Part shown: positions 36,978 through 55,715 of the stretch, in pieces
How positions within the stretch are numbered: position 1 is the first letter of the stretch
Layout: each line of letters starts with the position of its first letter
Source of the DNA: Robertkochia solimangrovi
GTDB lineage: Bacteria; Bacteroidota; Bacteroidia; Flavobacteriales; Flavobacteriaceae
Direction: 5' to 3'
Assembly (NCBI RefSeq): GCF_007279655.1
Contig: NZ_QKWN01000012.1
Coordinates: 62,001 to 126,000, forward strand
DNA: 64,000 nucleotides
The notes under the pieces: model-generated
What the model saw: the letters and a program-made list of their open reading frames with translations, nothing else
Database searches by the model: none
Told to the model about the DNA's origin: nothing
Program-made: the position numbers and the translations under genes

Positions 36978-37010
36978 AGGGCCTTTCTTTTTTGAGAAAG
37001 GCCCTTATTT
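36978..37010. terminator. Terminator between the M24 peptidase and DeoR genes
   Basis: AGGGCCTTTCT at 36978-36988 pairs with AGAAAGGCCCT at 36995-37005. It lies between convergent genes and can serve both. Confidence 0.85.
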
Positions 37011-37771
37011 TATTCAGCAATTATTACTTCTACATTCTTTTTTTCAAGCCAGAATATACTTTCACGATCGATATTTATATCGGTAACGATCTTATCAACT
37101 TTATCCAGACTTTCGATGAATGCAAGTCCCGTTTTCTTGAATTTTGAACTGTCGGCTACCAGAATCACTTCTTCTGAGATCTCGATCATGATCTGATTCA
37201 GATAGGCTTCCTCCATATGATGCGTGAATACACCTACTTCTGGTTTAATGCCGTCTACTCCCAGAAATAATTTGTTGCAATGTAATTGTCGTAAATTTCT
37301 TTCTGCCATCGGTCCTACCAGTGACATGGAAAATTCCTTGAGGTAGCCTCCCGGCATATAAACCTGGAGGTTTTTATACTGTGAAAGATTATTCACGATA
37401 TCCAGCGCGTTACTGATCACGGTCAGCTCATTGAATCCGGCAAGATTATTTGAAATTTCAAAGGTTGTTGTGCCGGAGTCGAGTATGATAGAATCCTTTT
37501 CATCGATCAGACTCGCAGCTTTTTTTCCGATCAATCTTTTGAGTTCCTGATTTACCCCTTTTTTCTCAGAAACTGTCAAGGCGATATTACTGGTTTTGAA
37601 AGCACCCCCGTGCGTTCTCACCAGTAACCGGTTCTTTTCCAGTTTGTCAAGATCATTTCTAATGGTAACTTCGGTAACTCCGAATTTTTCGCTCAGTTCC
37701 TGAACATCGACCTTTCCCAATTCATCCAGTATCTTAAGAATATTGGCCCGTCTTTCTGCTGCTTTTTTCAT
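37010..37771 (-). CDS. DeoR-family transcriptional regulator of the GalNAc locus
   Basis: A 253-residue regulator. Residues 1-55 are the DeoR winged helix (KFGVTEVTIRNDLDKLEKN is the recognition part); the rest is the sugar-phosphate sensor domain of the ISOCOT fold with LDSGTTTFEISNNL, VISNALDIVN and LFLGVDGIKPEVGVFTH. The family normally represses sugar catabolic operons until a phosphosugar binds; AgaR of E. coli controls the GalNAc pathway. It is the last gene of the minus-strand catabolic run, 76 bases after the amidohydrolase gene, with its own candidate operator, so autoregulation is plausible. Confidence 0.92.
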   Translation of the reverse strand: MKKAAERRANILKILDELGKVDVQELSEKFGVTEVTIRNDLDKLEKNRLLVRTHGGAFKTSNIALTVSEKKGVNQELKRLIGKKAASLIDEKDSIILDSGTTTFEISNNLAGFNELTVISNALDIVNNLSQYKNLQVYMPGGYLKEFSMSLVGPMAERNLRQLHCNKLFLGVDGIKPEVGVFTHHMEEAYLNQIMIEISEEVILVADSSKFKKTGLAFIESLDKVDKIVTDINIDRESIFWLEKKNVEVIIAE

Positions 37772-37798
37772 AATCGGTAATACGGTAGTATTTCTATA

Positions 37799-37819
37799 GA
37801 AACAAATATAATTTATTTC
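37799..37819 (-). promoter_or_regulatory. Candidate operator upstream of the DeoR gene
   Basis: An inverted repeat: GAAACAAAT, three bases, ATTTATTTC (eight of nine pairs match). It lies 28 bases upstream of the DeoR start codon. GAAACAAA also recurs at 37820-37827, exactly 21 bp after its first copy. The GAAA...TTTC style matches the elements at susC and the GH109 gene. Confidence 0.5.
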
Positions 37820-37847
37820 GAAACAAAAGAATATTTAAATTTTCGAA

Positions 37848-38834
37848 TTAGAAATTATAGGTTTTTTTAGCATTTTCCCGAAAAATCTTTTGAACCACTT
37901 CGGAGGGAAGTCCCAGGCCTTTAAAAGTTCCTTCGAATTCCGGAGCGACCATTTCTTCTTCGGTTTCAAAATACTTCCAGTGATTTTTCCAAAGTGTTTC
38001 AAAGCGCTGACTGAGCGCTTTCGGCGATCTGGATCCGTCATCGATCACATCGGAACCATAGATAATTCGATCCTGATAGGTGATAAAGAACTCACGTACA
38101 GATTCTCGATCCTGCATCGACTGAAATTGAACATGACAGATGCGCTCGGCCAGATCCGTCATTGTATTCGGAAATTTTTCGAGCCGTTTTGCTACTTCTT
38201 TAAGGTTCCACTCCATGCTGAATAAATGGAGCCCCACATATTTCAGATCGGGATATTTCTCGAGAACCCGGTCTCTTGCCATCATCTGACATTCGTAACT
38301 AGGATAGTCAGCATTTTTATACATATGATACTCAGGATGCGAGCCGAAATATTCCTGGTCGGAATTCATGGTCATCTCTTCCAGAGGTAGCCAGCAATTC
38401 CTGGGTTCTCCCTGATGGCCTATCAATAAAATACCCTCATCGCAAAGATATTGGTATAGGGGGTCAAAGCGTGCATCATCGACCATGACGAATTTTCCTT
38501 CCGAATCGGCTATTGCTGCATCCATGCCGATATTCTTCCAGATCTTTACCGCTACGGCACCATTGGAAATACCTCGTTTCAATTGTTCCAGGGCATGAGG
38601 TAGCCATTGTTGAGTGTTCCAGTAACGGGTGTCAAAACTAGTAGCATATCTGATCATATCCGGATAGCGTTCCTGCAACTTATGAATGGTCGCTTCCTGT
38701 GACTCCAGTGATTCGAAAAAGGGAATGTCCGTGTTGATCGAAAGAAATTTTACCCCGTTCTTAAGGGCAGTTTCCATTTTTTCGGTGGAAAGCGTGTTTA
38801 AATGAACATGAGCATCTATAAAAGATCGGGGCAT
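37848..38834 (-). CDS. TIM-barrel amidohydrolase (Amidohydrolase_2 type), candidate deacetylase
   Basis: A 328-residue cytoplasmic metal-dependent hydrolase. The metal site is visible: FIDAHVH at residues 5-11 (His8 and His... pair of the HxH motif), GHQGEPRNCW near residue 145, LHLFSMEW near residue 205 and GSDVIDD near residue 268. It belongs to the group named for 2-amino-3-carboxymuconate decarboxylase and related hydrolases, not to NagA. Within this operon the expected GalNAc-6-phosphate deacetylase is missing, so this protein is the candidate; a lactone hydrolase role is the main alternative. It overlaps the aldolase gene by 19 bases. Confidence 0.85.
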   Translation of the reverse strand: MPRSFIDAHVHLNTLSTEKMETALKNGVKFLSINTDIPFFESLESQEATIHKLQERYPDMIRYATSFDTRYWNTQQWLPHALEQLKRGISNGAVAVKIWKNIGMDAAIADSEGKFVMVDDARFDPLYQYLCDEGILLIGHQGEPRNCWLPLEEMTMNSDQEYFGSHPEYHMYKNADYPSYECQMMARDRVLEKYPDLKYVGLHLFSMEWNLKEVAKRLEKFPNTMTDLAERICHVQFQSMQDRESVREFFITYQDRIIYGSDVIDDGSRSPKALSQRFETLWKNHWKYFETEEEMVAPEFEGTFKGLGLPSEVVQKIFRENAKKTYNF

Positions 38835-39658
38835 GGCATTTCGTTTTTAACGATTCTCAGTTTATTTTTTACAAGTTTAGTAATTTCTGCCGTGGCAACG
38901 GGGAATACTTTTCTAAGATCAATTTCTTCGTTTTCCGCCAGCGTGTGCTGTAGGGTTTTCATAAAAATATTCTTGATCTCTGTGGCGAGATTAACTTTAC
39001 AGATCCCGTTACAGATCGCTTCCTTGATCTGCTCTTCCGGAACGCCTGAGCTGCCGTGCAATACCAGAGTGGCGGGTGTAATCCTATGGATCCTCGAAAG
39101 AAGTTCGATATCGAGCTTCGGGGTTTTTTTATAAAATCCGTGAGCGGTTCCGATCGCTATGGCCAGCGCATCCACACCGGTTGCTTCCACAAAAGATCGT
39201 GCCTCATCCGGCTGTGTGAATCCTTGTGCGCCATGATCTTGACCGAGTTTGGCGACATAACCTAATTCGGCCTCTACGTGTGCGTTATATGATTCTGCTC
39301 TTTTGACCACTTCCCGGGTGATCCTGATATTTTCCTCCAGAGGGAGTTCGCTGCCATCGATCATCACAGAATCAAAGCCTGCGTCGAGGCAACGTTGAGC
39401 TAATTCTACTGAACCTCCGTGATCCAGGTGAAGATAGCCTTCCACGCCATAATGTTTTAATCCTTCACGACCCAGCTTAACGGCGGTTTCGAGCCCCATA
39501 TAGTCGATGGAGCTCTGGGTAAGTTGAAGAATGATAGGGTCGTTATTTTCAGCGGCTGCCTGGAGCACTCCCTGAAGAGTTTCCATGTTGTAGAAATTGG
39601 TGGCAAGTAGGCCGCGTTTAAGATTGGTGAATTCTGAAAGGCGTTCTTTGATTCTCAC
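38816..39658 (-). CDS. Class II aldolase, tagatose-1,6-bisphosphate type
   Basis: A 280-residue zinc aldolase of the GatY/KbaY/Fba group. The catalytic and zinc-binding positions are seen in YLHLDHGGS (Asp79, His80), DSVMIDGSELPL, AHVEAELGYV, IGTAHGFYK and LVLHGSSGVP. Such enzymes split tagatose- or fructose-1,6-bisphosphate into dihydroxyacetone phosphate and glyceraldehyde 3-phosphate. The neighbours AgaS and a 1-phosphofructokinase-like kinase favour tagatose-1,6-bisphosphate. It starts 19 bases after the PfkB kinase stop and overlaps the amidohydrolase start. Confidence 0.88.
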   Translation of the reverse strand: MRIKERLSEFTNLKRGLLATNFYNMETLQGVLQAAAENNDPIILQLTQSSIDYMGLETAVKLGREGLKHYGVEGYLHLDHGGSVELAQRCLDAGFDSVMIDGSELPLEENIRITREVVKRAESYNAHVEAELGYVAKLGQDHGAQGFTQPDEARSFVEATGVDALAIAIGTAHGFYKKTPKLDIELLSRIHRITPATLVLHGSSGVPEEQIKEAICNGICKVNLATEIKNIFMKTLQHTLAENEEIDLRKVFPVATAEITKLVKNKLRIVKNEMPCPDLL

Positions 39659-39677
39659 GATTTAGATTTATTTTAGA

Positions 39678-40622
39678 TTAGGTCTCCGGATCAAATAGTT
39701 CTCTGATCCTGTTTTGAATTTGGTCTTTGTTTTGAAACGCTGCTGTACCACCGGCAGCGGTTGTATTCAGTGCACCCATGATATTTCCGTATTGCAGACA
39801 AAATTCCAGAGGAGCTCCTGAAATATATTTTGAGATGAATCCGGCATTGAAGGAATCTCCGGCTCCGATCGCATCGATGAATTGTGGGTTGATGAATGCC
39901 TTTACTTTGATCACCTGATCTTCTGTGAAACCGATACTTCCCTGTTCTCCCAATTTCAAGGCGATTGTATTTGCATAAGGACTTACTGCGGTAATGGCTT
40001 CTGTGATAGAATCAGACCCGGTTAAAGCCTTTATCTCCGCTTCATTAGGAAAGAAGACATCTACATAAGGCAGGCAACTTCTGAAGTCGAAGTCCCATGT
40101 ATTCCCCGGATCCCATTGCATGTCCAGTGAAGTTGTAACACCTGTTTCTTTTGCTTTTTTGAAGATCGCTATGATGTCTGTTTTGATACCTTTCTGTAAA
40201 AAGAAATTGGAAAGATGGAAGTGCTTGTGTTTGGCTACCTCTTCCCAGGGTATATCCTGGAAGGTGAGAGCTTCCATCGCACCGCAATGAGTGACATTGG
40301 CCCGATCTTGATCGTAACTCATTACGACGGTAACACCGGTATTGAGTGTTTCCGTTCTTTTGATAAAATCAGTGACAACTCCCTTTTTCTTTAGTTCTCT
40401 CAAGACAAGATCACCGAAGATATCATAGCCGATCATACCGCAAAAGGTCGTCTCTGTACCCATCGATGCGGCATTTGAGGCCATGATGCCTGAAGAGCTT
40501 CCTAATACAAGATTCATGTGGTCAGCGATGATCTCGGTTCCGATTTCCGGGAATCCGTGTATGTTATTTAATATCAGGTCTGCATTCAGTTCTCCTACTA
40601 CGAATAATTCTTTTTTACGCAT
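39678..40622 (-). CDS. PfkB-family sugar kinase (ribokinase-like)
   Basis: A 314-residue kinase with an N-terminal ribokinase-type start (LFVVGELNADLIL), the glycine-rich patch near SSSGIMASNAASMG, and the catalytic C-terminal motif DAIGAGDSFNAGF, whose Asp is the base. The substrate is a sugar or sugar phosphate. Since import is through a symporter rather than a PTS, one kinase must first phosphorylate GalNAc; this one is the better candidate because its partner resembles 1-phosphofructokinases. That assignment is an inference. It overlaps the partner kinase gene by eight bases. Confidence 0.88.
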   Translation of the reverse strand: MRKKELFVVGELNADLILNNIHGFPEIGTEIIADHMNLVLGSSSGIMASNAASMGTETTFCGMIGYDIFGDLVLRELKKKGVVTDFIKRTETLNTGVTVVMSYDQDRANVTHCGAMEALTFQDIPWEEVAKHKHFHLSNFFLQKGIKTDIIAIFKKAKETGVTTSLDMQWDPGNTWDFDFRSCLPYVDVFFPNEAEIKALTGSDSITEAITAVSPYANTIALKLGEQGSIGFTEDQVIKVKAFINPQFIDAIGAGDSFNAGFISKYISGAPLEFCLQYGNIMGALNTTAAGGTAAFQNKDQIQNRIRELFDPET

Positions 40623-41535
40623 GGCTTAGATTTTTAATGTTAATGAGTGGGAGTAAAGATTCCACGTCTGTTTTTCTGAGCATGCCCAGTTCTTCGTTCA
40701 GACAATTGGCTGCACCACAGGCGACACCGTAAGTCGCGATATCTGAATTGGCCATTTGTCTTTCAATGGCAAAGGCGATACCTGCTGTCAGGCAGTCACC
40801 GCTACCAACGGTACTGATGACATTATCAATGGTTGTACATGCGTGGATCAATTCCTCACGGAAATATAGCCATAACCCTTGTTTGCCTTTGGTATAGGCA
40901 ACGAGTTTTACGTTTTTTTTAAGATGTTCGATTACTTCGAAGGGGTTGGTAGTGCCCAAAATTTCACCGGCTTCTGGTTCGTTAAGGTGGATCCCGAAAA
41001 ATTCCGATTTCAAGGCATTTTTAAGTTGTGAGCCATTGCAATCTATGATCAGGTCTTTGCCGGCTTCATGACAATGTTCACTGAGGAGTCTGTTGGCGCT
41101 CTCGGGAGTTCCGGCTGGCCAGGATCCGGAGGCAATGATCAATCGATGATTTCTGATCTCCTTTTTAAATATATCCAGAAAGGATTGCCAGTCGCTTTTT
41201 GTTATGAACGGGCCCGGTTCCAGAAGTTCGGTGTTGTTTAATTCCTGATCCTGAGATCGTATGGTGTAGCATTTTCTGTTTTCAGAATCTAATTCCGGTC
41301 CTATTACATCGATACCTTTATTCAGGCAGGCTTCCTTAATCCAGGAACCGTTTCTTCCTCCCCAGAATGCAAGCAGGGTGGCGTCTTGTCCTAACTCTCG
41401 TTGGGCAAACGCAATATGCGTACCTTTTCCTCCGGGATATTCCTGAAGAGATTCAAAACGATTGGTGGTTCCGCTGGAGAATCGGGTGATCCATGCAAAG
41501 GTGTCTATCGATGGGTTCGGACAAATGATCAGCAT
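40615..41535 (-). CDS. 1-phosphofructokinase/tagatose-6-phosphate kinase-type PfkB protein
   Basis: A 306-residue kinase with the hexose-phosphate kinase start CPNPSIDTFAWI and the YPGGKGTHIAFAQRELG patch seen in FruK and LacC, and the catalytic motif STVGSGDCLTAGIAF with the base Asp. FruK/LacC proteins act on fructose-1- or tagatose-6-phosphate. In this gene order tagatose-6-phosphate is the sensible substrate, giving the bisphosphate for the aldolase. It starts five bases after the agaS stop codon. Confidence 0.88.
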   Translation of the reverse strand: MLIICPNPSIDTFAWITRFSSGTTNRFESLQEYPGGKGTHIAFAQRELGQDATLLAFWGGRNGSWIKEACLNKGIDVIGPELDSENRKCYTIRSQDQELNNTELLEPGPFITKSDWQSFLDIFKKEIRNHRLIIASGSWPAGTPESANRLLSEHCHEAGKDLIIDCNGSQLKNALKSEFFGIHLNEPEAGEILGTTNPFEVIEHLKKNVKLVAYTKGKQGLWLYFREELIHACTTIDNVISTVGSGDCLTAGIAFAIERQMANSDIATYGVACGAANCLNEELGMLRKTDVESLLPLINIKNLSHA

Positions 41536-41540
41536 TTTTT

Positions 41541-42692
41541 TCAGTCTTTAAAAGGGTATATAGTTACGCCCTGAACCACACGGTTGATGGCGCCTGAAAC
41601 CGAAGGATTGTCCGGGTTGAGTCCTGTGCCTATAGATCTGTGATAGCCGAGTAACTGGCCGATCAGGGTAAATGGGATCATGTCAAAATCAGGATAATTA
41701 ATGGTGTTTTTCAAAAGTTCGAACGTCGTAGCGTTGCTGAGGTTTTCGGGTACGATCTTTCCGATACTGAGACAAGCGATCTTATGGTTTTCATTATTGA
41801 TGGATCTTGCCAGGTCGATCTCATATTTCCGCGAGTAATCGTTGTTTGAAAATAAGTATACAACCAGTGTCTTCTCGTTCACGACCGCTCGCGGACCATG
41901 TCGGAAGCCTAGGAAGGAATCGTGTTTGCAGATCACTTTTCCATCAGTCAGTTCCTGTAGTTTTAAATGACATTCTCTGGCAATCCCGACCAACGGGCCT
42001 GATCCCAAAAATACGACCCGGTCAAACTCCTGATTGATGAGCCGGTTGAAGAGGTCCGAATGTTTCAATATATGATTCCCCTGGGCGGCGATATGTTCGA
42101 CTGCAGCCGCTGAATATTGAAAGGGTTTCTTTCGTATGATCAGAAGTATACAAAGTAACATGGAAGTAAAACTACCGGTCATCGCGAGGCTTTTATCATT
42201 AGACTCCTCGGGTAAAAGGATAGCATAATTACGTTCCGGATTTTGTCTGGCGTAATTCATGAGGATACCTTCATCATTGCAGGTGATGATGAGGTGTACC
42301 ATATTTTCTCCACAGATCTGATCGGCAAGTTCAACCGTTGCAATGCTTTCCGGACTATTGCCTGATCTGGCGAAGGATATCAGCAGCGTAGGACGATGTG
42401 GCTCCAGAAACAGATCAGGGTTTGTTACCAGTTGTGTGGTGGCAATAGCCCTGGTTCTGCACCCTGTCTCTTTTTGTACGTAGGCTTCAACGGCTTCACC
42501 GATGAACGCTGATGAACCTGCTCCGGTAAGTACGATCTCTGTTTCTGGTGTTATATGGTCCTGAAAGAATCGGCGGATCGCAGGTTCCTCTTTTGAGATC
42601 TGTTGGAATACTTTCTTCCATAGATGGGGTTGTCCTTCTATTTCTGAAAGGGTGTAGCAGGTTGATTGTTCTTTATCTGAATCTACTCTCAT
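41541..42692 (-). CDS. agaS: AgaS-type galactosamine-6-phosphate deaminase/isomerase
   Basis: A 383-residue protein with two SIS domains, the length of AgaS. The first has VLTGAGSSAFIGEAVEAY and SFARSGNSPES; the second has VFLGSGPLVGIARE, the FRHGPRAVV loop and the AgaS-type end DNPSVSGAINRVVQGVTIYP. AgaS converts galactosamine-6-phosphate to tagatose-6-phosphate and ammonia in the GalNAc pathway. The ATG at 42692 is used: the longer frame to 42935 reads through the symporter gene and adds no SIS sequence. It starts 11 bases after the symporter stop codon. Confidence 0.92.
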   Translation of the reverse strand: MRVDSDKEQSTCYTLSEIEGQPHLWKKVFQQISKEEPAIRRFFQDHITPETEIVLTGAGSSAFIGEAVEAYVQKETGCRTRAIATTQLVTNPDLFLEPHRPTLLISFARSGNSPESIATVELADQICGENMVHLIITCNDEGILMNYARQNPERNYAILLPEESNDKSLAMTGSFTSMLLCILLIIRKKPFQYSAAAVEHIAAQGNHILKHSDLFNRLINQEFDRVVFLGSGPLVGIARECHLKLQELTDGKVICKHDSFLGFRHGPRAVVNEKTLVVYLFSNNDYSRKYEIDLARSINNENHKIACLSIGKIVPENLSNATTFELLKNTINYPDFDMIPFTLIGQLLGYHRSIGTGLNPDNPSVSGAINRVVQGVTIYPFKD

Positions 42693-42703
42693 AATCGCTA
42701 TGG

Positions 42704-44482
42704 CTATAATTTTTTTCTTAGTTGTAACAGTATCAGGAGGCATGTGGCAGCTATTGCCAATAGTATGGTTCCCCATATCGGGCTTCCCAGCAGTAATTTT
42801 CCGATTCCGATCATCAGGCTGTAGATGCCTGTGGTTCCTATGCTCATCGAGGCAAGTGCTGCCGGGAAATTGATCGGTTTGGGAATGATACCTGCGCGGT
42901 CTGTAGCCGACAGGGTTTTTAGTATAGGGGTCCATCCGGAGCCTCCGGGATTTACCTTTTTTACGAATTTTATCAGGGTCTCACGATCGGTTTCCGGACT
43001 CACATAGGCGGTGATGATCCAGCAGACCGTTGTAATGGAGACACCGATGATCAGTTGTTGCCATGATTCCAGGGCTGGCAGATGTAAAAGGGATTCGTGT
43101 ATGAAGGCAAAATACAGCGCCACCAAAAAGGAAACGATCATAGCTACCAGTTCAGTAGCGGCATTGATGCGCCACCAATACCATCGTAATATGAATAGGA
43201 GTCCGGTGCCTGCTCCGATCTGTAATAATATCTGAAAGCCTTGTAAGGCATTGTTTAGCAAGATGGCCATTATGCCACCGGCGATCATGATCAGTAAAGT
43301 AGAGATCCTTCCGATTTGAACCTGTTTTTTATTTGAACTTTTCGGATCGATAAAGCGAGCATACACATCATTCACCAGATAGGATGAGCCCCAGTTCAAA
43401 TGCGTTGAAAGAGTAGACATGTATGCTGCCAGTAATGAGGTAACCACCAGTCCCATTGCACCCTCGGGTAAAAAGGATAGCATGGCGGGGTAGGCCATAT
43501 CATCTCCAATAATGGAAGCTGATTCAGGAAAAGCGGTTTTTAGGGCTTCCAGGTTTGGAAATACCACGATTGAACATAAGGCAACCACGATCCATGGCCA
43601 TGGCCTTAATGCATAATGGACGATGTTGAAAAGGAGAACGGATCTTACTGAATGTTCTTCGTTCTTTGCTGAGAGCATCCGTTGTACCATATAACCTCCT
43701 CCGCCCGGTTCAGATCCCGGATACCATACGGCCCACCATTGAATAAATAATGGAACGAGGAAAATTGTCAGGAAGAGTTCCGGGTTTGAGATGTCAGGTA
43801 TAATATTCAATCTTTCTGATACAGCGGTATTCTTCAAAAGGTTGTCCATACCACCGACCTCCGGGTGGGAGAGCGCTACAAAGGCTGCGATAACTGCGCC
43901 GGCAATGGATAGAATAAATTGTATCGCATCGGTCAGAATCACTCCTTTTAGTCCGCCTATCGCACTGTAGACCACTGTCACCACCCCGGCGATCAGAAGG
44001 GTTTCCACAGGCGTTAAGCCTAAAAGGACACTGCTGATCTTGATGGCTGCGAGTGAAACGATGGCAATGATCATTACATTGAAAAAGAATCCGAGGTAAA
44101 TGGCCCGGAAACCTCTCAGGAAAGCGGCGATCTTTCCGCTGTATCTCATTTCGTAAAATTCTATATCGGTAAGGATGTCGGTTCTCTTCCAGAGTCTGGC
44201 AAAAAAGAAAACTGTGAGCATTCCGGTAAGCAGGAAGTTCCACCATACCCAGTTTCCGGAAACCCCGTGTTTTCTTACAATATCTGCTACCAGATTCGGG
44301 GTGTCGGTAGAAAAAGTTGTGGCGACCATGGAAATACCTAAAAGCCACCATGACATTTTACCGCCTCCTTTGAAATATTCATCGGATGATTTACCGGCTG
44401 ATCGGGAACTGTAGATTCCGATCATTAAAGAGATCAAAAGGAAAACGAATATTATTAATAGGTCTATGGTTGATAGTAACAT
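42704..44482 (-). CDS. Sodium:solute symporter (SSS family) sugar transporter
   Basis: A 592-residue membrane protein with many hydrophobic spans and the SSS features GGGKMSWWLLGISMVATTFS, the TDAIQFILS sodium-site segment and a charged loop around PGSEPGGGGYMVQRML. The family includes glucose, galactose, sialic-acid and myo-inositol symporters. Being the first gene of the catabolic run, it is the likely importer of GalNAc or galactose from the periplasm. The ATG at 44482 is chosen since the extra 10 residues of the longer frame precede the first span without a role. Confidence 0.93.
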   Translation of the reverse strand: MLLSTIDLLIIFVFLLISLMIGIYSSRSAGKSSDEYFKGGGKMSWWLLGISMVATTFSTDTPNLVADIVRKHGVSGNWVWWNFLLTGMLTVFFFARLWKRTDILTDIEFYEMRYSGKIAAFLRGFRAIYLGFFFNVMIIAIVSLAAIKISSVLLGLTPVETLLIAGVVTVVYSAIGGLKGVILTDAIQFILSIAGAVIAAFVALSHPEVGGMDNLLKNTAVSERLNIIPDISNPELFLTIFLVPLFIQWWAVWYPGSEPGGGGYMVQRMLSAKNEEHSVRSVLLFNIVHYALRPWPWIVVALCSIVVFPNLEALKTAFPESASIIGDDMAYPAMLSFLPEGAMGLVVTSLLAAYMSTLSTHLNWGSSYLVNDVYARFIDPKSSNKKQVQIGRISTLLIMIAGGIMAILLNNALQGFQILLQIGAGTGLLFILRWYWWRINAATELVAMIVSFLVALYFAFIHESLLHLPALESWQQLIIGVSITTVCWIITAYVSPETDRETLIKFVKKVNPGGSGWTPILKTLSATDRAGIIPKPINFPAALASMSIGTTGIYSLMIGIGKLLLGSPIWGTILLAIAATCLLILLQLRKKL

Positions 44483-44517
44483 GAAATATTTTTGAAAAGC
44501 AAATAAAAACAATTATA

Positions 44518-44524
44518 ACGAAAG
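44518..44524 (-). promoter_or_regulatory. CTTTCGT element upstream of the symporter operon
   Basis: On the minus strand CTTTCGT stands 36 bases upstream of the symporter start. The same heptamer occurs on the plus strand at 44718-44724 before susC. It is a half-site only; the GAAA partner seen at susC is absent here. No clean promoter pair could be fixed for this operon in the AT-rich 269-base divergent region. Confidence 0.3.
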
Positions 44525-44665
44525 AAAAAATAAAAATAAATAAAATTTTAATGGATAATTTTCTATTTGTATTGAGTCAATCTCAAAAAACATAACAAAA
44601 TATTTACTTAAAACTATATATAAGTGTAATAATTTACTGTTTGAATAAAATTTAACCTTATTTTT

Positions 44666-44694
44666 TTGTTAATTAATATTTAATTATAAATTAG
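44666..44694 (+). promoter_or_regulatory. susC promoter
   Basis: TTG at 44666-44668, an 18-base spacer and TAAATTAG at 44687-44694, which fits TAnnTTTG with one mismatch. The spacing equals that of the GH109 promoter. Confidence 0.6.
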
Positions 44695-44705
44695 TGGCAT
44701 TAAAA

Positions 44706-44722
44706 GAAAGTAAAAAGCTTTC
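44706..44722 (+). promoter_or_regulatory. Candidate DeoR operator at susC
   Basis: GAAAGTAAAAAGCTTTC, an inverted GAAAG/CTTTC pair, starts 19 bases after the start of the -7 box, so it would cover the start of transcription. It matches the element at the GH109 gene in 14 of 17 positions. Confidence 0.5.
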
Positions 44723-44751
44723 GTAACGTAACTAATTAATTAATTTAATTT

Positions 44752-47676: not shown

Positions 47677-47694
47677 TCAGAAAACAATATAATT

Positions 47695-49338
47695 ATGAAG
47701 AATATCATAACGAGCCTATTGGCAGCCCTGGTGCTTGTCTCTTGCGACATCGACAGATTTCCCTATGATTCCATCGCTTCAGAAGAACTTTTTGGGGGTG
47801 AAGGAGGATTGGAGTCGGCTACTCTCGGTAACTATTCTATGCTGAAAGGGGATGCAGACGGTAATGGATTTGCACCTCAGATGCACCGTTTCGGTGAATA
47901 TGCCGGAGATAACGTGGCACTCAGTGGAACGACAACTGACCCTTTGTTTTATATTTATAACTACCATAATATCACTACCAGCGGAAAGGCGAATAATCTA
48001 TGGACCGCTGGATATCAGACGATCGTTGGCTGTAATAAGATCATTGGTCTTGCAGAAGAAGGTGTTACCTCCGAAATGGATCAATTGATCGGGGAGAACT
48101 ATTATTTGCGCGGACTTGTGTATTTTCAGATGGTGAATGTATTCGGCAGACCCTATTCCCAGGGAAGGGAGAATCTCGGGATTCCGTTGAAGTTAACAGA
48201 TGATGTAAGTGATACTCCAGACAGAAATACAGTTGGCGAAGTCTATGATCAGGTATTGGCCGACCTTACCAGGGCCGAAAGCCTGATGACGGTGGATAAG
48301 GCTAATAATTATGCGACGAAAGAAGCGGCACAAGCCTTATTATCCAGAGTTTATCTGTATATGGAGGAGAATGAAAAGGCGGTGGAATATGCCGACAAGG
48401 TGATCAATTCCGGAAAGTATAGTCTGGTTAGTCATGATAACCTTTCTAAATACTTTCAATTGAATCCGAATGATAACCCTGAAACGATCTTTTGTTTTAA
48501 AAGACTGGAAGATTCCGATTATAACCATGGTTGGTATACCGTAGGTTCGTTGTATGCCAATATCAATGGTGCCGGGTGGGGTGAGATGTATGCATCCAGT
48601 GATTACCTGGACCTGTTGCGTATGAATCCTGCTGATCAGCGTTTCGGATTTATCGAACCGCAATATTTGTTCGATGCCAATGGAGATAAGATTCCTGCAG
48701 TTTTCTGGGTTGATGGTGATTATAAGTACCAATTCAGACCGATCACAGAAAACGGAAGTAGTATAACCTTTGATCAGGATGGTACTACCTATGATGTATT
48801 GTCTGAGCAGGAGGGTGACCTTACTAAATATTACTTTGAGACCGGAGGAGAGAAACAGTATGTAGTTAAAGATTACGACATGGTAAAGCGTAACGGGTAT
48901 CCAAAATTCTATATTCTTAAATGTTCACTACAGGAGGAGGTCTCTCATTTATGGTCTCCACTGGTTTCAAGACTGGCTGAAATGTATCTGAACAAAGCTG
49001 AAGCCTATGCTAAATCAGGTAATGAAGCTGCAGCGATCGAAAATGTGAACATCATTCGTGAGCGAGCTGGAATCGAGACGTATGAATCAGGTAATTTACC
49101 TGCCGGGATGACAGCTCTTGATGCAGCACTTCAGGAAAGAAGAATGGAACTTGCCTATGAAGGTCACCGCAAATTTGATGTATTCCGAAACAACAGGGCC
49201 CTAAACAGAAGATATCCGGGTACACATCTGAATGGAAATAATCCTTATTATGAGGTGACCCCTACAGATAACCGGGTAATTGTGTATATTCCAGAAGCAC
49301 AAATCACGGCGCAGCCTTCGCTGATCCAAAACCCTTGA
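47695..49338 (+). CDS. susD: SusD/RagB-type glycan-binding lipoprotein
   Basis: A 547-residue lipoprotein with signal ALVLVSC, followed by the SusD-like N-terminal block (NNLWTAGYQTIVGCNKIIG, then LIGENYYLRGLVYFQMVNVF) of TPR-type helices and the RagB/SusD C-terminal part with LVSRLAEMYLNKAEAYAKSG and ERRMELAYEGHRKFDVFRNN. It caps SusC at the outer membrane and binds the sugar. The ligand is inferred from the neighbouring GH2 and GH109 enzymes. Confidence 0.96.
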   Translation: MKNIITSLLAALVLVSCDIDRFPYDSIASEELFGGEGGLESATLGNYSMLKGDADGNGFAPQMHRFGEYAGDNVALSGTTTDPLFYIYNYHNITTSGKANNLWTAGYQTIVGCNKIIGLAEEGVTSEMDQLIGENYYLRGLVYFQMVNVFGRPYSQGRENLGIPLKLTDDVSDTPDRNTVGEVYDQVLADLTRAESLMTVDKANNYATKEAAQALLSRVYLYMEENEKAVEYADKVINSGKYSLVSHDNLSKYFQLNPNDNPETIFCFKRLEDSDYNHGWYTVGSLYANINGAGWGEMYASSDYLDLLRMNPADQRFGFIEPQYLFDANGDKIPAVFWVDGDYKYQFRPITENGSSITFDQDGTTYDVLSEQEGDLTKYYFETGGEKQYVVKDYDMVKRNGYPKFYILKCSLQEEVSHLWSPLVSRLAEMYLNKAEAYAKSGNEAAAIENVNIIRERAGIETYESGNLPAGMTALDAALQERRMELAYEGHRKFDVFRNNRALNRRYPGTHLNGNNPYYEVTPTDNRVIVYIPEAQITAQPSLIQNP

Positions 49339-49348
49339 TGATAGGAAT

Positions 49349-50701
49349 ATGAATTTGAGTAAAGTAGTTAGCGGTTTACCGGCAGCTCTGTTATACCTCG
49401 CCTTAGCTTGTGCGGGGTGTAACAGCTCCGGTAGCCATCAAAGTGAAGAATTAGCCACGGTTTCCTGGCAGAATGCCCAGCGTATTCCTGCAGGAGGAAA
49501 TAGTTGGGTCCTGAACAATGCGTCTGCCAATGAAGTACTGATCTCTGAAACAGGGATCCATAACTGGGCTGCTGCGGAAGATGTCATTCGGGTATATTTC
49601 GCTACCGAACAAGCCGGGCAACTCGACCTGGCATTACATATGAAAGTGTCTTCCGGAGTTTCAGTAATAAAGGTAGGTATAGGTGAAGATATTCGGGAGA
49701 TCGAAGTATCCAATGATTCCTACCAGGATGTTCCGGTAGGTAGTTTTGGTATAGAAAATGCCGGGTATCATTATGTGGAAGTACAAGGGGTATCAAAAAC
49801 TGCCGAATATTTCGGAGACATTACCGAAATTGCTATCACCGGTAAAGCTTCGGAAGGAAAAGTAACCTATATCAGGGAAAAGGAAAATTTCTATTTTGGA
49901 AGACGAGGCCCTTCTGTTCATCTGAGGTTTCCACTTCCGGAAAATAAAGATATCCGCTATTTCTATTCTGAGATCACTGTGCCTGAAGGTGAAGATGTGA
50001 TCGGATCCTATTTCATGGCCAACGGTTTTGGACAGGGGTATTTCGGTATTCAGGTAAACAGTGAAGAAGAGCGAAGAGTACTTTTTTCAGTCTGGAGTCC
50101 TTATACTACTGATAATCCGGATGAAATCCCGGATGATTATAAAATCGGGCTACTGGCAAAAGGGGAGGATGTGCATACCGGTGAGTTCGGAAATGAAGGA
50201 TCCGGAGGTCAAAGCTATCTGAAATATAACTGGAAGGCAGGAACCACCTGTAAATTCTTACTTAAAGGTGAGCCTTCAGGCAATGAAAGTACTGATTTCA
50301 CCGCCTGGTTTTATGCTCCCGGAGAGCAGAAGTGGAAGTTGATCGCTTCTTTCAGAAGACCCCATACCGATACTTATCTAACCGGTTTCTATTCATTCCT
50401 TGAAAATTTTGATACGAAGACAGGCGATCAGATGCGTATGGCAAAATATGGGAATCAGTGGGTGGTAGATAAGGAGGGGAACTGGTATGAACTTACAAAT
50501 ACTATTTTTTCCATCGATGCAACAGGAGATGCGGGCAGACGTACAGATCATGCCGGAGGACTTGATGCTTCCGGAGATTTCTATCTTAAAAATTGCGGTT
50601 TTTTTAGTGATAATGTTGCAGAGGGAGCAAGCTTTGAACGTCCGGAGACAGGAGCAAAGCCCGTTTTAGATTTTTCTGCCCTGGAAGCTAAGATACCTTG
50701 A
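49349..50701 (+). CDS. DUF5077-DUF3472 lipoprotein, third gene of the SusCD operon
   Basis: A 450-residue lipoprotein with a signal ending ALACAGC. The N-terminal third (about 40-165) resembles DUF5077, a carbohydrate-binding-module-like beta-sandwich (WVLNNASANEVLISETGI); the rest matches DUF3472, including FYFGRRGPSVHLRFPLP, then QGYFGIQVNS and a Trp-rich central strand set. No catalytic pair can be identified. Position 10 bases after SusD suggests a surface glycan-binding protein or an enzyme of unknown type. A terminator hairpin follows. Confidence 0.82.
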   Translation: MNLSKVVSGLPAALLYLALACAGCNSSGSHQSEELATVSWQNAQRIPAGGNSWVLNNASANEVLISETGIHNWAAAEDVIRVYFATEQAGQLDLALHMKVSSGVSVIKVGIGEDIREIEVSNDSYQDVPVGSFGIENAGYHYVEVQGVSKTAEYFGDITEIAITGKASEGKVTYIREKENFYFGRRGPSVHLRFPLPENKDIRYFYSEITVPEGEDVIGSYFMANGFGQGYFGIQVNSEEERRVLFSVWSPYTTDNPDEIPDDYKIGLLAKGEDVHTGEFGNEGSGGQSYLKYNWKAGTTCKFLLKGEPSGNESTDFTAWFYAPGEQKWKLIASFRRPHTDTYLTGFYSFLENFDTKTGDQMRMAKYGNQWVVDKEGNWYELTNTIFSIDATGDAGRRTDHAGGLDASGDFYLKNCGFFSDNVAEGASFERPETGAKPVLDFSALEAKIP

Positions 50702-50775
50702 ATTGAAGAATCCCGGGTCTTTTGAATAACCGATGATTTGAATGATCTGCATTATAAATAAAAAGAGTTTTAACG

Positions 50776-50817: not shown

Positions 50818-50852
50818 TACCGGCCCTCCGGTAATTACCTAACGAAAACTGA

Positions 50853-53800
50853 ATGAAAAAAATTTACCTGTTACTATTCATCCTATTGAGTATTGCCAAT
50901 GTTCAAGCACAGCAAAATCCTGAAGAGGATGTTTATCACTATATCGAGAACCCTGATGTTCTCTCTGAAAATAAGTTAGATCCGCATTCCGGATTCTTTT
51001 CCTATGAAAATTCAGCACTCGCTGAAACCGGTATCCCGGCAAACTCAACAAATTATATATCACTGGACGGAATATGGAAATTCAACTGGGTACGTAAACC
51101 CGACGAAAGACCTGAAGACTTTTATCGTGAAGATTATGATATAGCCTCCTGGAAAGATATTCAGGTTCCTTCCAATTGGGAGATCGAAGGATTTGGGATT
51201 CCTATCTATGTCAACCACCAATATGAATTTGCCGATTATAAAGCCCCCGTTTCTAAGGAGATTGATTTTACAGACCGGATCTATCCCAGTGATCCGGGTA
51301 AAGTACCTCATGACTATAATCCTGTTGGTTCCTTTAAAAGAGAATTTACCGTTTCTGAAGACTGGACTGGAAACAAAAGCATAATTCTTCATATCGGTGC
51401 CATGAAATCCGGAGGGTTTGTATGGATTAATGGAACCTATGTGGGATATTCTCAGGGAAGTAAATTGCCCGCTGAGTTTGATGTGACCGATTATGTGCAT
51501 TCCGGCGAAAACAGTATAGCTATACAGATCTTTCGATGGACTGACGGATCATATTTGGAATGTCAGGACTTCTGGAGGATCAGTGGTATCGAAAGAAGTG
51601 TTTACCTGTATGCTCAGCCCGTGAATCACATTACCGATATTAAAACAGATGCCTCACTTGACGAAGGCTATAATAACGGCGTTCTTAAGGTTGATCTTAC
51701 CCTTGGTAATCGCAGTGGTAAAGATCACAGATCGAAGCTCAAATATACGCTGCTTAGAAATGGTAAAGTCATTTTGCAGGAAGAACGGGATTATAAGCTG
51801 ACGGCTGGTACTTCGACGGAGGTCAGCTTTGACGGAGTTGTCCCGGCTGTTGAGAAGTGGACGGCGGAGACTCCGGAACTCTATACGCTCTTAATTACGC
51901 ATCAGGACAAAAAGGGTAGGGTATTGGAAGTGATTCCTCAGCATCTGGGATTCAGAAAAGTGGAAATACGCGATGGCCTTCTAAAAATAAACGGGCAGGT
52001 TGTTACCCTCAGAGGTGTGAATACACAGGAACACGATCCGGAAACCGGACATGTGATTGACCGGGAAATGATCATGACTGATATAATACTCTGGAAGGAG
52101 AATCATATCAATGCTGTTCGATTGAGTCATTATCCGCGTGGCGATGAATTCTATGAATTATGCGACCGGTACGGGATCTATGTGGTGGATGAAGCAAATA
52201 TTGAATCCCATGGAATGTATTACGGAGAGCACAGTCTTGCCGTGAAGCCGGAATGGGAAAAGGCGCATTTGGAACGCATGAAACAGATGGTGATACGGCA
52301 TTACAATCATCCATCCGTGATCATCTGGTCTATGGGAAATGAAGCCGGAAACGGTGTGAACTTTTACAAAGGGTATGATCTTATCAAATCCTTGGATTCC
52401 ACCGGCAGGCCGGTACAATATGAACGCTCTTACAAAAAGGAAGACGGGAACCTGTTTGATATGGACCGTAATACCGATATCATCGTTCCTCAGTATCCTT
52501 CCCCCGGAACATTTGAATTAATCGGACAAAATAAGTCAGACCGGCCTTTTATTCCGAGTGAATATGCTCATGCGATGGGGAATAGTATGGGGAACTTTCA
52601 GGAATACTGGGATGAAATCGATAAGTATGATAATCTTCAGGGTGGGTTCATCTGGGATTGGGTCGATCAGTCGGTTTGGAAAAAGGACCTTTTTGGAAAT
52701 CGCTTCTATGCTTATGGTGGTGATTACGGGAAAAATATGCCTACCGATAATACATTTTTGAATAATGGGATAGTTGACCCGGATCGCTCTCCTCAACCGG
52801 AGCTGTTCGAAGTAAGGAAGGTACATGAACCGGTAAACTTTAAAGACAAGGGTATTAACCGGCAGAAGGAAATGAGAATTTTGATCGAGAATCTTTATGA
52901 TTTTACAGATCTCAACACCCTTCAATTTTCTGCAGTGATCAAAGCAGACGGAATGTTACTCCGGGAAATTACTTTGGACCCTGGTAGTATAATTCCGCAT
53001 ACTGGCCGGTTAGTTCGGATTCCTTTCGGAGATATTGTCTTGGATCCGCTTACAGAGTATTTTATCGAAATCAAAGGCATATTGAAATCAGAGCAGGATC
53101 TTTTACCCGCCGGTTACGTGATCGCCAGAGAACAATTCAAATTGGAGCCTGCAGCCAGGGAAATAGCAAAATTGGAAATAAAGGACTATGGTTCCGTAAA
53201 CCTGAAAAAGGGTAAAGGAAGGATCGAAATATCCGGTAATTCCTTTTTCATAAGTTTTGATCGATCCTCAGGTAAGATCCTTGATTATAAAATTGACGAT
53301 AAGGAGATGTTTTTGCCGGAGAATGGTCCGGTACCTAACTATTGGAGAGCTCCTACCGATAACGACCTTGGTAACAGAATGCAGGAAAAGAATCTTGTGT
53401 GGAAAGAAGCTTCCCTGAATTACCGATCAAAGATCACCGCAATTGAAGAAAATAAGGATGGATCGGTGTCGATTAAGGTACAATTCGAATTGCCCGGTGT
53501 TGAAACTACCCAGCTAACTGCCTATACGGTTTTCGGAAACGGAATGATACAAGTGAGTAATCATTTGAATGCTTCAGAAATGGCCGCTGATATACCCCGT
53601 TTTGGAATGCGAATGAAATTACCAAAAGAATACAGCCATGTGAAATATTATGGAAGAGGTCCATGGGAGAACTATGCCGATCGGAGAACCTCCACTTTTG
53701 TGGATGTCTTTGAAACTTCTGTAAGCGATATGTATTTCCCTTATATCCGTCCTCAGGAGAATGGTTACAGAACCGATATAAGATGGGCCTTGTTCCAAAA

Positions 53801-54188
53801 TACTATTGGAGAGGGAATCATGGTAGTCGCATCGGCTGACAATCCGGACAATCTGGGTTTTAGTGCACTTTTTATGGCACAGGAGGATTTTGATGTGACT
53901 GCCGGACTCAATTATCAAAAGGGGGCGGTAGGGACGAATTTCAGCAAACACACCACCGATATTACAGAACAGGAATTTATTGAATTGAAACTGGATATGC
54001 AGCAAAGAGGTGTTGCCGGAATCGACAGCTGGGGAGCACGACCTCTTCAAAAGTATACCATCGATCCGGCTAAGGATCATGCTTATACTTTTTATATAAT
54101 TCCAGTGGATGCTCAATCAAAACAATCGTTGCTGACCCAGTTTAAGGCTGCCTATTATGCAGCCGGAAATACCAAAGGTGGAGAGTAA
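50853..54188 (+). CDS. Secreted GH2 beta-galactosidase (LacZ type)
   Basis: An 1111-residue enzyme with a signal peptide ending VQAQ. Domain order follows LacZ: sugar-binding jelly roll (about 60-235), immunoglobulin-like domain (240-345), TIM barrel (350-650) with the acid/base Glu497 in WSMGNEAGNG and the nucleophile Glu570 in PSEYAHAMGNS, a further beta domain, and the small-chain domain (about 800-1090) with NYWRAPTDNDLGN. It removes beta-linked galactose, probably in the periplasm. It has its own promoter box, and a 165-base gap separates it from the GH109 gene. Confidence 0.95.
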   Translation: MKKIYLLLFILLSIANVQAQQNPEEDVYHYIENPDVLSENKLDPHSGFFSYENSALAETGIPANSTNYISLDGIWKFNWVRKPDERPEDFYREDYDIASWKDIQVPSNWEIEGFGIPIYVNHQYEFADYKAPVSKEIDFTDRIYPSDPGKVPHDYNPVGSFKREFTVSEDWTGNKSIILHIGAMKSGGFVWINGTYVGYSQGSKLPAEFDVTDYVHSGENSIAIQIFRWTDGSYLECQDFWRISGIERSVYLYAQPVNHITDIKTDASLDEGYNNGVLKVDLTLGNRSGKDHRSKLKYTLLRNGKVILQEERDYKLTAGTSTEVSFDGVVPAVEKWTAETPELYTLLITHQDKKGRVLEVIPQHLGFRKVEIRDGLLKINGQVVTLRGVNTQEHDPETGHVIDREMIMTDIILWKENHINAVRLSHYPRGDEFYELCDRYGIYVVDEANIESHGMYYGEHSLAVKPEWEKAHLERMKQMVIRHYNHPSVIIWSMGNEAGNGVNFYKGYDLIKSLDSTGRPVQYERSYKKEDGNLFDMDRNTDIIVPQYPSPGTFELIGQNKSDRPFIPSEYAHAMGNSMGNFQEYWDEIDKYDNLQGGFIWDWVDQSVWKKDLFGNRFYAYGGDYGKNMPTDNTFLNNGIVDPDRSPQPELFEVRKVHEPVNFKDKGINRQKEMRILIENLYDFTDLNTLQFSAVIKADGMLLREITLDPGSIIPHTGRLVRIPFGDIVLDPLTEYFIEIKGILKSEQDLLPAGYVIAREQFKLEPAAREIAKLEIKDYGSVNLKKGKGRIEISGNSFFISFDRSSGKILDYKIDDKEMFLPENGPVPNYWRAPTDNDLGNRMQEKNLVWKEASLNYRSKITAIEENKDGSVSIKVQFELPGVETTQLTAYTVFGNGMIQVSNHLNASEMAADIPRFGMRMKLPKEYSHVKYYGRGPWENYADRRTSTFVDVFETSVSDMYFPYIRPQENGYRTDIRWALFQNTIGEGIMVVASADNPDNLGFSALFMAQEDFDVTAGLNYQKGAVGTNFSKHTTDITEQEFIELKLDMQQRGVAGIDSWGARPLQKYTIDPAKDHAYTFYIIPVDAQSKQSLLTQFKAAYYAAGNTKGGE

Positions 54189-54264
54189 TGAGTCTGAAAA
54201 AGAGAACACAAGCCATAAGGAACACTAATGAAAGCTAAAATGCTATTTAAACCCCTAAATAATT

Positions 54265-54293
54265 TTGTTTTTTAAATAAAAAAATTATTTTTG
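54265..54293 (+). promoter_or_regulatory. Promoter of the GH109 gene
   Basis: TTG at 54265-54267, an 18-base spacer and TATTTTTG at 54286-54293 give an exact consensus promoter for this phylum. A second -7-like TAATTTTG lies at 54260-54267. Confidence 0.75.
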
Positions 54294-54304
54294 GAATATA
54301 AAAC

Positions 54305-54321
54305 GAAATAAAAAAACTTTC
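54305..54321 (+). promoter_or_regulatory. Candidate DeoR operator at the GH109 gene
   Basis: GAAATAAAAAAACTTTC starts 19 bases after the start of the -7 box, exactly as its 14/17-identical counterpart does at susC. It would overlap the start of transcription. Confidence 0.5.
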
Positions 54322-54353
54322 TTTTACTATTTAAATTATAAAATCGGATAAAA

Positions 54354-55715
54354 ATGAATTCCAGAAGAGACTTTATCAAACGAACTTCCATTGCGGGTGC
54401 CGGGTTGGCGTTTGCCCCGAATATTTCTTTCGGATTTAATCCTTTTAAAGGAGAAAAGCTAAAGCTTGCATTTATAGGGGTAGGCTTAAGAGGAACTAAC
54501 CACCTGAACAATGCGATCAGAAGAAACGATACGGAGATCACCGCTATTTGTGATATCGATTCGGATCGTGTTGATATTGCCTTGAAGCTGCTGGAGAAAG
54601 ATGGTCGTAAAAAGCCGCAGGTGTTTGGTAAGAATGAAATGGATTATCTGAATTTGCTGGCCTCAAAAGAGGTAGATGCAGTTATAATTTCTACTCCATG
54701 GTTATGGCATACCAAGATGGCTGTAGCTGCTATGGAAGCCGGAAAGTTTACGGGAGTGGAGGTGTCGGCTTCTCAGACCATTGAAGAATGCTGGGATCTT
54801 GTCAACACTCATGAACGTACAGGAACCCATATGATGTTGCTGGAGAACGTAAATTTTCGAAGAGATGTCATGGCGGTTCTCAATATGGTAAAGCAGGATG
54901 TTTTTGGTGAATTACTGCATTTTCGTTGTGGTTACCAGCATGACCTGCGTGGCGTTAAGTTCAATGATGGTAATTCAGCCTATGGTCCGGGAGTGGAATT
55001 CGGAGATAAAGGAATCTCTGAGTCAAAATGGAGAACGAAGCATTCGGTTTTCAGAAATGCAGACACCTATCCGACTCATGGAGTTGGTCCTATCGCTGCG
55101 ATGTGTGACATAAACCGTGGTAATCGTTTTGGAACCATAACTTCTCATGCCACCAAGGCGGTCGGACTTCATAAATACGTTGTTGACAAAGGAGGGGAAT
55201 CACATCCAAATACCAAGGTTAAGTTTAAACAGGGGGATATCATCACTTCTACGATTGAAACTGCAAACCAGGAGACCATCATCATTACTCATGATACGAA
55301 CTCTCCACGTCCTTATTCACTTGGTTTCAGAGTGCAGGGCGTTAACGGACTATGGGAAGTCGATGGCAACAGGATTTATGTGGAAGGTAAATCGGAGCCA
55401 CATCATTGGGATGATGCAACAGAATGGATTAAAAAATATGATCATCCGGTATGGAAAGAATATGAAGCAAAGGCTACCGGAGCCGGTCACGGTGGAATGG
55501 ATTATTTTGTTATGCAGTCTTTTGTTGAGGCGGCGATGGCGAATGTTGCTCCTCCGATCGATGCGTATGATGCCGCAGCATGGTCGGCGATCACTCCGTT
55601 ATCTGAAATTTCTATCGAAAATAATGGGGAACCTCAGGAATTCCCTGATTTCACAAGAGGTCAGTGGATCGCCAGAAAACCTTATGACTGGATGACCACT
55701 CATTACGGTAAATAA
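54354..55715 (+). CDS. GH109 alpha-N-acetylgalactosaminidase (NAD-dependent)
   Basis: A 453-residue exported enzyme with a Tat signal (SRRDFIKR and a hydrophobic stretch). It has the Gfo/Idh/MocA Rossmann fold (LAFIGVGLRGTNHLNNA), and the GH109 pattern known from Elizabethkingia NagA: ENVNFRRDVMAVLNMV, CGYQHDLRGV, YPTHGVGPIAAMCDINRGNR, HKYVVDKGGESHPN and AGHGGMDYF. GH109 enzymes release terminal alpha-GalNAc by an NAD-dependent oxidation-elimination route; at least some act on blood group A antigen, and other activities occur. Automated annotation would call it an oxidoreductase. A terminator follows the gene. Confidence 0.9.
   Translation: MNSRRDFIKRTSIAGAGLAFAPNISFGFNPFKGEKLKLAFIGVGLRGTNHLNNAIRRNDTEITAICDIDSDRVDIALKLLEKDGRKKPQVFGKNEMDYLNLLASKEVDAVIISTPWLWHTKMAVAAMEAGKFTGVEVSASQTIEECWDLVNTHERTGTHMMLLENVNFRRDVMAVLNMVKQDVFGELLHFRCGYQHDLRGVKFNDGNSAYGPGVEFGDKGISESKWRTKHSVFRNADTYPTHGVGPIAAMCDINRGNRFGTITSHATKAVGLHKYVVDKGGESHPNTKVKFKQGDIITSTIETANQETIIITHDTNSPRPYSLGFRVQGVNGLWEVDGNRIYVEGKSEPHHWDDATEWIKKYDHPVWKEYEAKATGAGHGGMDYFVMQSFVEAAMANVAPPIDAYDAAAWSAITPLSEISIENNGEPQEFPDFTRGQWIARKPYDWMTTHYGK

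Follow-up and report, generated by a model that had tools for sequence, protein, structure and literature searches.

A probable SusCD glycan locus of Robertkochia solimangrovi coupled to an AgaS-type operon with a PF04909 amidohydrolase as candidate N-acetylgalactosamine deacetylase

In a 64-kb stretch of the Robertkochia solimangrovi genome (contig NZ_QKWN01000012.1, positions 62,001 to 126,000; hereafter the window, whose own numbering we use), twelve genes at 37010-55715 form two divergent blocks (Table 1). We consider it probable that they make up a SusCD system for oligosaccharides of galactose (Gal) and N-acetylgalactosamine (GalNAc), coupled to an AgaS-type operon that would run through tagatose-6-phosphate and use an amidohydrolase of the PF04909 family as its deacetylase. 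On balance we also lean, if only slightly, toward a broader proposal: that the clade of PF04909 proteins lacking a signal peptide deacetylates GalNAc-6-phosphate (or GalNAc) as a non-orthologous enzyme, that the clade of the kinase PfkB1 is a GalNAc/galactosamine (GalN) 6-kinase, and that with AgaS the two make up a Bacteroidota form of the GalNAc route. The gene families, their linkage and the lack of a full-length NagA were observed, and from them we infer the activities, the order of the steps, the compartments and the glycan.

In the proposed route, SusCD, perhaps with the DUF3472 protein, would bring small glycans into the periplasm; there, the exo-acting GH2 would release beta-galactose and GH109 alpha-GalNAc, and the symporter would take up the released sugar across the inner membrane. 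PfkB1 would convert GalNAc to GalNAc-6-phosphate, and the PF04909 amidohydrolase would remove the acetyl group, either after or before the kinase step. AgaS would then turn GalN-6-phosphate into tagatose-6-phosphate and ammonia, PfkB2 would yield tagatose-1,6-bisphosphate, and the class II aldolase would split the latter into dihydroxyacetone phosphate and glyceraldehyde-3-phosphate. The AgaR-type repressor would control the locus, and galactose would enter the Leloir pathway, encoded elsewhere. The five cytosolic enzymes pair with the five pathway steps. An original prediction, made from the letters of the window, rightly listed the amidohydrolase among the parts that differ from the familiar pathway, but did not flag deacetylation as the single step without a known enzyme.

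That a deacetylase is required for GalNAc catabolism follows from Escherichia coli, which, according to the accessible portion of the source, fails to grow on GalNAc when both agaA and nagA are lost (PMC3668189). Pfam and NCBIfam searches of the locus proteins detected no GalNAc-6-phosphate deacetylase of the known family (AgaA/NagA), and its place is held by the PF04909 gene. A search of the whole genome (4.4 Mb; completeness 100%, contamination 0.26%) for NagA returned eight partial matches, the best at 36 bits versus a cut-off of 226, and none full-length. In the class of the proteobacterium Duganella, AgaS was found in 4 of 369 genomes, Duganella itself (L176) among them, and the same NagA queries recovered a NagA homologue in all four AgaS loci; in the other three (L201-L203) it lies about 3 kb from AgaS, and the amidohydrolase was not found there.

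The gene order of the locus recurs across many genomes, beyond chance. AgaS and the amidohydrolase were searched in 299 genomes of the family and 395 of the phylum, and AgaS was recovered from 13 and 21 of these, respectively (33 distinct genomes, with R. solimangrovi in both draws). Counted by tblastn in the 33 AgaS stretches (10-26 kb each), PfkB1 is present in 30, the DeoR regulator and the aldolase in 26 each, the amidohydrolase in 24 (33-69% identity to that of the window), GH109 relatives in 22, PfkB2 in 15, AgaZ in 9 and a NagA homologue in only one, G491, where a nagB-nagA pair lies about 10 kb from AgaS. The genes most commonly run AgaS-PfkB2-PfkB1-aldolase-amidohydrolase, with a second GH109 relative and DeoR frequently coming next. 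A second set was obtained by scanning with alignment A1, taking the best 80 of 452 relatives with at most 10 kb on each flank and recounting by tblastn; these counts are the ones used, as the first, ORF-based counts (from open reading frames) miss genes in GC-rich loci (e.g. L087, L176). The relatives come from Galbibacter, Joostella, Salegentibacter, Leeuwenhoekiella, Echinicola, Belliella, Fodinibius and other genera, and, to judge by genus names, many Bacteroidota with this operon are presumably marine or saline. AgaS occurs in 44 of the 80 loci, together with PfkB1 (42), the aldolase (40), PfkB2 (32), DeoR (30), a GH109 relative (26), DUF3472 (11), GH2 (6) and a NagA homologue (2; L171, which is the G491 pair, and L176). 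The two sets are not independent, because some genomes are common to both (e.g. L075/L171, L068/L114).

At the protein level, the amidohydrolase had no NCBIfam match at E 0.001, TIGR00221 (NagA) included, and on this ground the idea of a diverged NagA was dropped. A sequence search of the PDB gave three weak, unrelated-looking matches, none convincing. Residues H9, H11, K97, H140, H203 and D262 are invariant in the 44 rows of fold alignment A2 (43 of 83 amidohydrolase ORFs plus the window protein), a HxH/K/H/H/D set that we take to be a metal ligand pattern. The AlphaFold2 model built from these rows (predicted local distance difference test 94, predicted template modelling score 0.92) is an amidohydrolase-superfamily barrel, and its nearest neighbours by VIA-align 2 are the uncharacterised 3irs (Z 21.6, root mean square deviation 2.9, 239 aligned) and 3cjp (Z 19.7). 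The modelled fold fits a metal hydrolase and does not discriminate among substrates.

The relatives fall into two kinds. The metal motif lies within 25 residues of the start in 56 of the 83 ORFs, and AgaS is in the stretch for 41 of these; in the other 27 the N-terminus is longer or the motif unmatched (16 with a lipobox-like word), and AgaS accompanies 4. Among 24 AgaS-linked rows, the first 21 residues contain the HxH motif in 22; in the other two, L086 and L053, it comes later and the start is uncertain. A glutamate at position 230 was read in 58 of the 80 relatives, 41 of them with AgaS, and another or unread residue in 22, 3 of them with AgaS; the typing is by regular expression, with no call for three rows and a possibly wrong reading for L116, and both these and the N-terminus counts run over related genomes with kinship ignored. 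In a tree of 53 rows, 20 of the 24 AgaS-linked sequences cluster in a single 22-member group (support 92/87), outside which lie L107 and a group of L085, L086 and L053.

Several observations weigh against the deacetylase assignment. Three PIG-L deacetylase-like proteins are encoded elsewhere in the R. solimangrovi genome. NagA is scarce in the family regardless (20 of 199 genomes), a base rate by which its absence says little in itself and which led us to drop that absence as proof of replacement. Across the 33 AgaS-bearing whole genomes NagA was matched at E 1e-20 in 11 and above the cut-off in 4; a match is present in 5 of 24 genomes with a linked amidohydrolase and in 6 of the 9 that lack it (Fisher p 0.03, the genomes being related), and 5 of 24 is not low, given the family rate. 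The argument for the deacetylase rests on a linked gene that fills the gap, and not on mutual exclusion with NagA. Duganella L176 holds both a NagA homologue and a PF04909 relative with a signal-like N-terminus in one stretch. Nine of the 33 AgaS stretches have no amidohydrolase (G011, G037, G212, G225, G289, G307, G437, G448, G569), four of which (G212, G225, G289, G569) encode instead a distant and exported PF04909 protein (two checked by Pfam), and 17 of the 58 relatives with the linked-type residue 230 had no AgaS in their stretch. The AgaS-linked proteins could not be kept as one clade, since the tree requires three to four changes. Lastly, the fold neighbours at Z 17-18.5 are decarboxylases, lactonases, phosphotriesterase relatives and dihydroorotase.

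The lactonases among the model's neighbours (3fdk, 4j35), like the COG3618 amidohydrolase 4dlf, would suit a different assignment, by which the substrate of the operon is GalN or a sugar that lost its acetyl group before import, and the amidohydrolase has some other job, e.g. the opening of a sugar lactone or the removal of an O-acyl group. Exported relatives of 42-46% identity, which have genes for Gfo/Idh/MocA and 3-keto-disaccharide-hydrolase proteins next to them and showed no AgaS, point in the same direction. We hold this to be doubtful, as the linked members mostly have no signal sequence and sit within the AgaS-kinase-aldolase operon, the two glycosidases of the locus are of Gal/GalNAc types, and Pfam and NCBIfam found no lactone-producing oxidoreductase in the minus-strand operon.

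Two further settings of PF04909 relatives were noted. The exported-looking ones in L090, L092, L093 and L096 stand beside genes of PF01408 (Gfo/Idh/MocA) and PF06439 (3-keto-disaccharide-hydrolase), with SusC in three of the four (Pfam run on L090 only). Leeuwenhoekiella L122 (8536-9900, 10001-10993) and L119 pair the amidohydrolase divergently with a GH109 at 76-78% identity, and neither stretch holds AgaS.

For the kinases, our preferred assignment places PfkB1 at the 6-phosphorylation of GalNAc or GalN and PfkB2 at tagatose-6-phosphate. PfkB2 is nearest to the 1-PFK/LacC subfamily, whose members are phosphosugar kinases, and PfkB1 to the ribokinase-like sugar kinases, its top NCBIfam match being ribokinase (118 bits, cut-off 300). 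Across the 33 stretches, PfkB2 never shares a stretch with AgaZ, a GatZ/KbaZ-like protein (PF08013 114 bits), while PfkB1 persists, as if PfkB2 and AgaZ served one step; the available part of one paper proposes AgaZ as a tagatose-6-phosphate kinase (PMC12118421). We think it unlikely that the roles are swapped, with PfkB1 acting on tagatose-6-phosphate and GalNAc or GalN being 6-phosphorylated by another kinase. Such a swap would suit the nine stretches that have neither PfkB2 nor AgaZ, at least one of which also has no PfkB1, and the 10 of 43 relatives' loci, rechecked by tblastn, that hold PfkB1, AgaS and the aldolase without PfkB2 and AgaZ, but it sits poorly with the subfamily placements, with the exclusion just described and with two loci that retain PfkB1 without PfkB2 or aldolase. 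Salegentibacter echinorum (L116) and Flavilitoribacter nigricans (L138) have a cluster reduced to AgaS-PfkB1-amidohydrolase-DeoR; the remaining enzymes may lie elsewhere in those genomes, and this gene set would be expected if AgaS, PfkB1 and the amidohydrolase converted GalNAc to tagatose-6-phosphate and general glycolysis did the rest.

The joining of the two blocks was considered separately. SusC and SusD are adjacent and linked to the carbohydrate-active enzymes GH2 and GH109, the gene content by which a SusCD locus is recognised. In Galbibacter and Joostella (L111, L112, L114, L115), relatives of SusC (62-64% identity), SusD (64-68%) and DUF3472 (52-60%) are likewise divergent from the AgaS operon, and in G484, G613 and G487, of a distant family, SusCD, PfkB1, AgaS, the sodium:solute symporter (SSS), the amidohydrolase, GH109 and DUF3472 occur together. 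These associations argue against the view that the SusCD/GH2/GH109 block and the AgaS operon are independent neighbours brought together here by chance, a reading that we judge improbable even though the AgaS operon of many relatives adjoins a SusC of 28-33% identity or none, GH2 is nearby in few AgaS-bearing relatives' loci (6 of 44), and the downstream stretch in Galbibacter marinus (L194) gave a GH20-like match, with no GH2 or GH109 found.

As a composite in its own right, the 20 kb stretch of L085, L086 and L087 (G484, G613, G487; distant Bacteroidota family f36) unites SusCD, PfkB1, a LacD/DeoC-family aldolase, AgaS, AgaZ, SSS, the amidohydrolase, GH109 and DUF3472. Seven loci (L066-L072) carry between amidohydrolase and regulator a second GH109-family protein, absent from that place in the window, with 32-35% identity to the window's (L066:8034-9449, PF21252 150 bits). 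A sulfatase (PF00884, SGSH_C) at L073:12641-14263 adjoins the symporter of an AgaS operon and hints at sulfated GalNAc glycans as the target in some relatives. Certain AgaS loci that lack the linked amidohydrolase hold a melibiase-like protein, a DUF4874-DUF4832 protein with a secretion tail and an exported distant PF04909 protein (L154:3619-5721, L154:10997-14200, L103:6466-8700, L104:6132-8195, L104:12069-14801, L101:8350-9414), which looks like a second, uncharacterised type of galactosamine-glycan locus; L154 has the linked-type amidohydrolase as well.

Table 1. Features of the locus at window positions 37010-55715, with predicted roles and supporting matches.
Feature	Position	Strand	Evidence
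DeoR-family regulator, AgaR type	37010-37771	-	NF040755 AgaR 262.1 bits, cut-off 260; PF00455, PF08220
PF04909 amidohydrolase without signal peptide, candidate GalNAc(-6-phosphate) deacetylase	37848-38834	-	PF04909 55 bits versus 26
Class II ketose-bisphosphate aldolase, predicted tagatose-1,6-bisphosphate aldolase	38816-39658	-	PF01116 288 bits
PfkB1, ribokinase-like sugar kinase, predicted GalNAc/GalN 6-kinase	39678-40622	-	PF00294 174 bits
PfkB2, 1-PFK/LacC-like, predicted tagatose-6-phosphate kinase	40615-41535	-	PF00294; TIGR03168 183 bits, cut-off 216
AgaS-family SIS protein, predicted GalN-6-phosphate deaminase/isomerase	41541-42692	-	TIGR02815 386 bits; 3odp 293 bits
Sodium:solute symporter, predicted inner-membrane importer of GalNAc, perhaps Gal	42704-44482	-	PF00474 117 bits
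Divergent AT-rich promoter region	44483-44751		TTTCG-type words; operator a hint
SusC-like TonB-dependent transporter	44752-47676	+	PF07715, PF00593, PF13715
SusD-like lipoprotein	47695-49338	+	PF07980, PF14322; lipobox-like cysteine
DUF5077-DUF3472 protein	49349-50701	+	PF11958 361 bits, PF16871 131 bits; lipobox-like cysteine
GH2 LacZ-type beta-galactosidase, predicted	50853-54188	+	PF02836, PF02837, PF02929, PF16353 (LacZ domain set)
GH109, predicted alpha-N-acetylgalactosaminidase	54354-55715	+	PF21252 282 bits; Rossmann domain PF01408 44 bits

All twelve genes named in the original prediction are open reading frames at the positions it gave, and Pfam and NCBIfam returned the families it assigned. 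The seven minus-strand genes, from the regulator to the symporter, are separated by -19 to 76 bases and have the look of a single operon. The reading of an AgaS operon and a DeoR regulator is supported, the latter being of the AgaR type, except that the listed AgaS frame (41541-42935) is over-long; from the translations, AgaS likely starts at 42692, and the symporter at 44482 rather than 44512. AgaS covers the whole of TIGR02815 at 386 bits, under the curated cut-off of 529. The aldolase scores 238 against TIGR00167 (cut-off 216), and tagatose-specific models fall below their own cut-offs. A symporter in place of a phosphotransferase system (PTS), as first proposed, agrees with the PF00474 match. 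Both kinases of the locus are of the PfkB type, and Pfam and NCBIfam identified no APH-type GalNAc-1-kinase among its genes. The description of the locus as self-contained was too strong: the listed genes are all there, but every expected function is not, for the deacetylase is a candidate outside the known family and the galactokinase (301 bits, above the cut-off) is encoded on another contig.

On the plus strand, divergent from the AgaS operon, SusC, SusD and the DUF5077-DUF3472 gene are spaced by 10-18 bases; GH2 and GH109 follow at greater distances (151 and 165 bases) and may have their own promoters. GH2 scores 952 bits against NF052611 (cut-off 999), and its motifs GNEAGNG at 495 and SEYAHAMGNS at 569, which we take to be the two catalytic-glutamate motifs, bear out the earlier reading that both glutamates are present. 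The GalNAc/galactose direction of that reading is also supported, since among solved structures GH109 matches 2ixa best (525 bits, near full-length), an entry named alpha-N-acetylgalactosaminidase, with 6t2b at 254 bits. Both the Rossmann and the C-terminal domain matches of GH109 exceed their curated cut-offs. Given the Tat-type signal of GH109 (TIGR01409 24, cut-off 16.7) and the hydrophobic N-terminus read from the GH2 sequence, both glycosidases are predicted to be periplasmic. None of the five plus-strand genes was seen to encode an endo-acting enzyme, which suggests that the target is oligosaccharides and not a polymer. The DUF5077-DUF3472 protein matches the uncharacterised 4qhw in the PDB (383 bits); literature hits for DUF3472 concern, by title, centipede venom and Drosophila viruses. 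A motif sampler run on 17 promoter regions scored above all 12 of 12 shuffled sets, a signal that is a hint of an operator at most, because the regions are mutually related and one site in each is forced by design. Scans of the 64-kb window for tRNAs and Rfam families gave no match. Outside the locus, the window encodes at 32147-32887 a protein with an NYN domain and an OST-HTH/LOTUS domain, possibly an RNA-acting nuclease.

The claim that no such locus has been described stood in part. The polysaccharide utilization locus BT4240-50 of Bacteroides thetaiotaomicron shares SusCD, GH2, GH109, a putative inner-membrane transporter and a GalNAc kinase; in the portion of the paper available, however, its kinase is of the APH type and phosphorylates O1, whereas those of the window are PfkB proteins, and the locus also encodes an M60-like peptidase along with sigma/anti-sigma factors (PMC11992087). 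A word search of that paper's main text gave no AgaS, deacetylase, aldolase or tagatose, whereas the window locus has the AgaS branch (PMC11992087). The Faecalibacterium prausnitzii cluster has GH109 and genes of a five-step GalNAc pathway via tagatose-1,6-bisphosphate, but in the accessible text uptake is by a PTS and SusCD goes unmentioned, where the window has a symporter and SusCD (PMC10808065). As far as those texts extend, neither cluster joins the AgaS branch to SusCD (PMC11992087, PMC10808065). The aga/gam system of E. coli and the Aga pathway of Shewanella have the AgaS step, the tagatose-bisphosphate aldolase and AgaR in common with the window, whose kinases differ in being of the PfkB type (PMC3668189, PMC2996990). 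In the part of the source at hand the E. coli deacetylase is AgaA/NagA, where the window has the PF04909 protein (PMC3668189). The Shewanella Aga pathway, from the corresponding excerpt, uses a permease and a kinase with no PTS, as in the non-PTS plan of the window (PMC2996990). The window locus thus seems to unite the SusCD/GH2/GH109 plan with the AgaS plan, with two steps replaced. A literature search over titles and abstract openings, most subscription journals being out of reach, found no PF04909 GalNAc deacetylase and no AgaS pathway in Bacteroidota.

SusCD/GH2/GH109 clusters and clusters of GH109 with a GalNAc pathway are already published, and the new point is the amidohydrolase, linked to AgaS, as a candidate substitute for the usual deacetylase. 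A survey of 397 gut genomes, in its accessible part, defined GalNAc catabolism by the joint presence of AgaS and AgaA and counted 76 carriers among Actinobacteria, Firmicutes and Proteobacteria (PMC5583593). If the PF04909 clade is indeed a deacetylase, Bacteroidota with this operon would use GalNAc, yet an AgaA-based rule would score them as non-users or as users of GalN only, and reconstructions that require AgaA/NagA would overlook the Bacteroidota version of the pathway.

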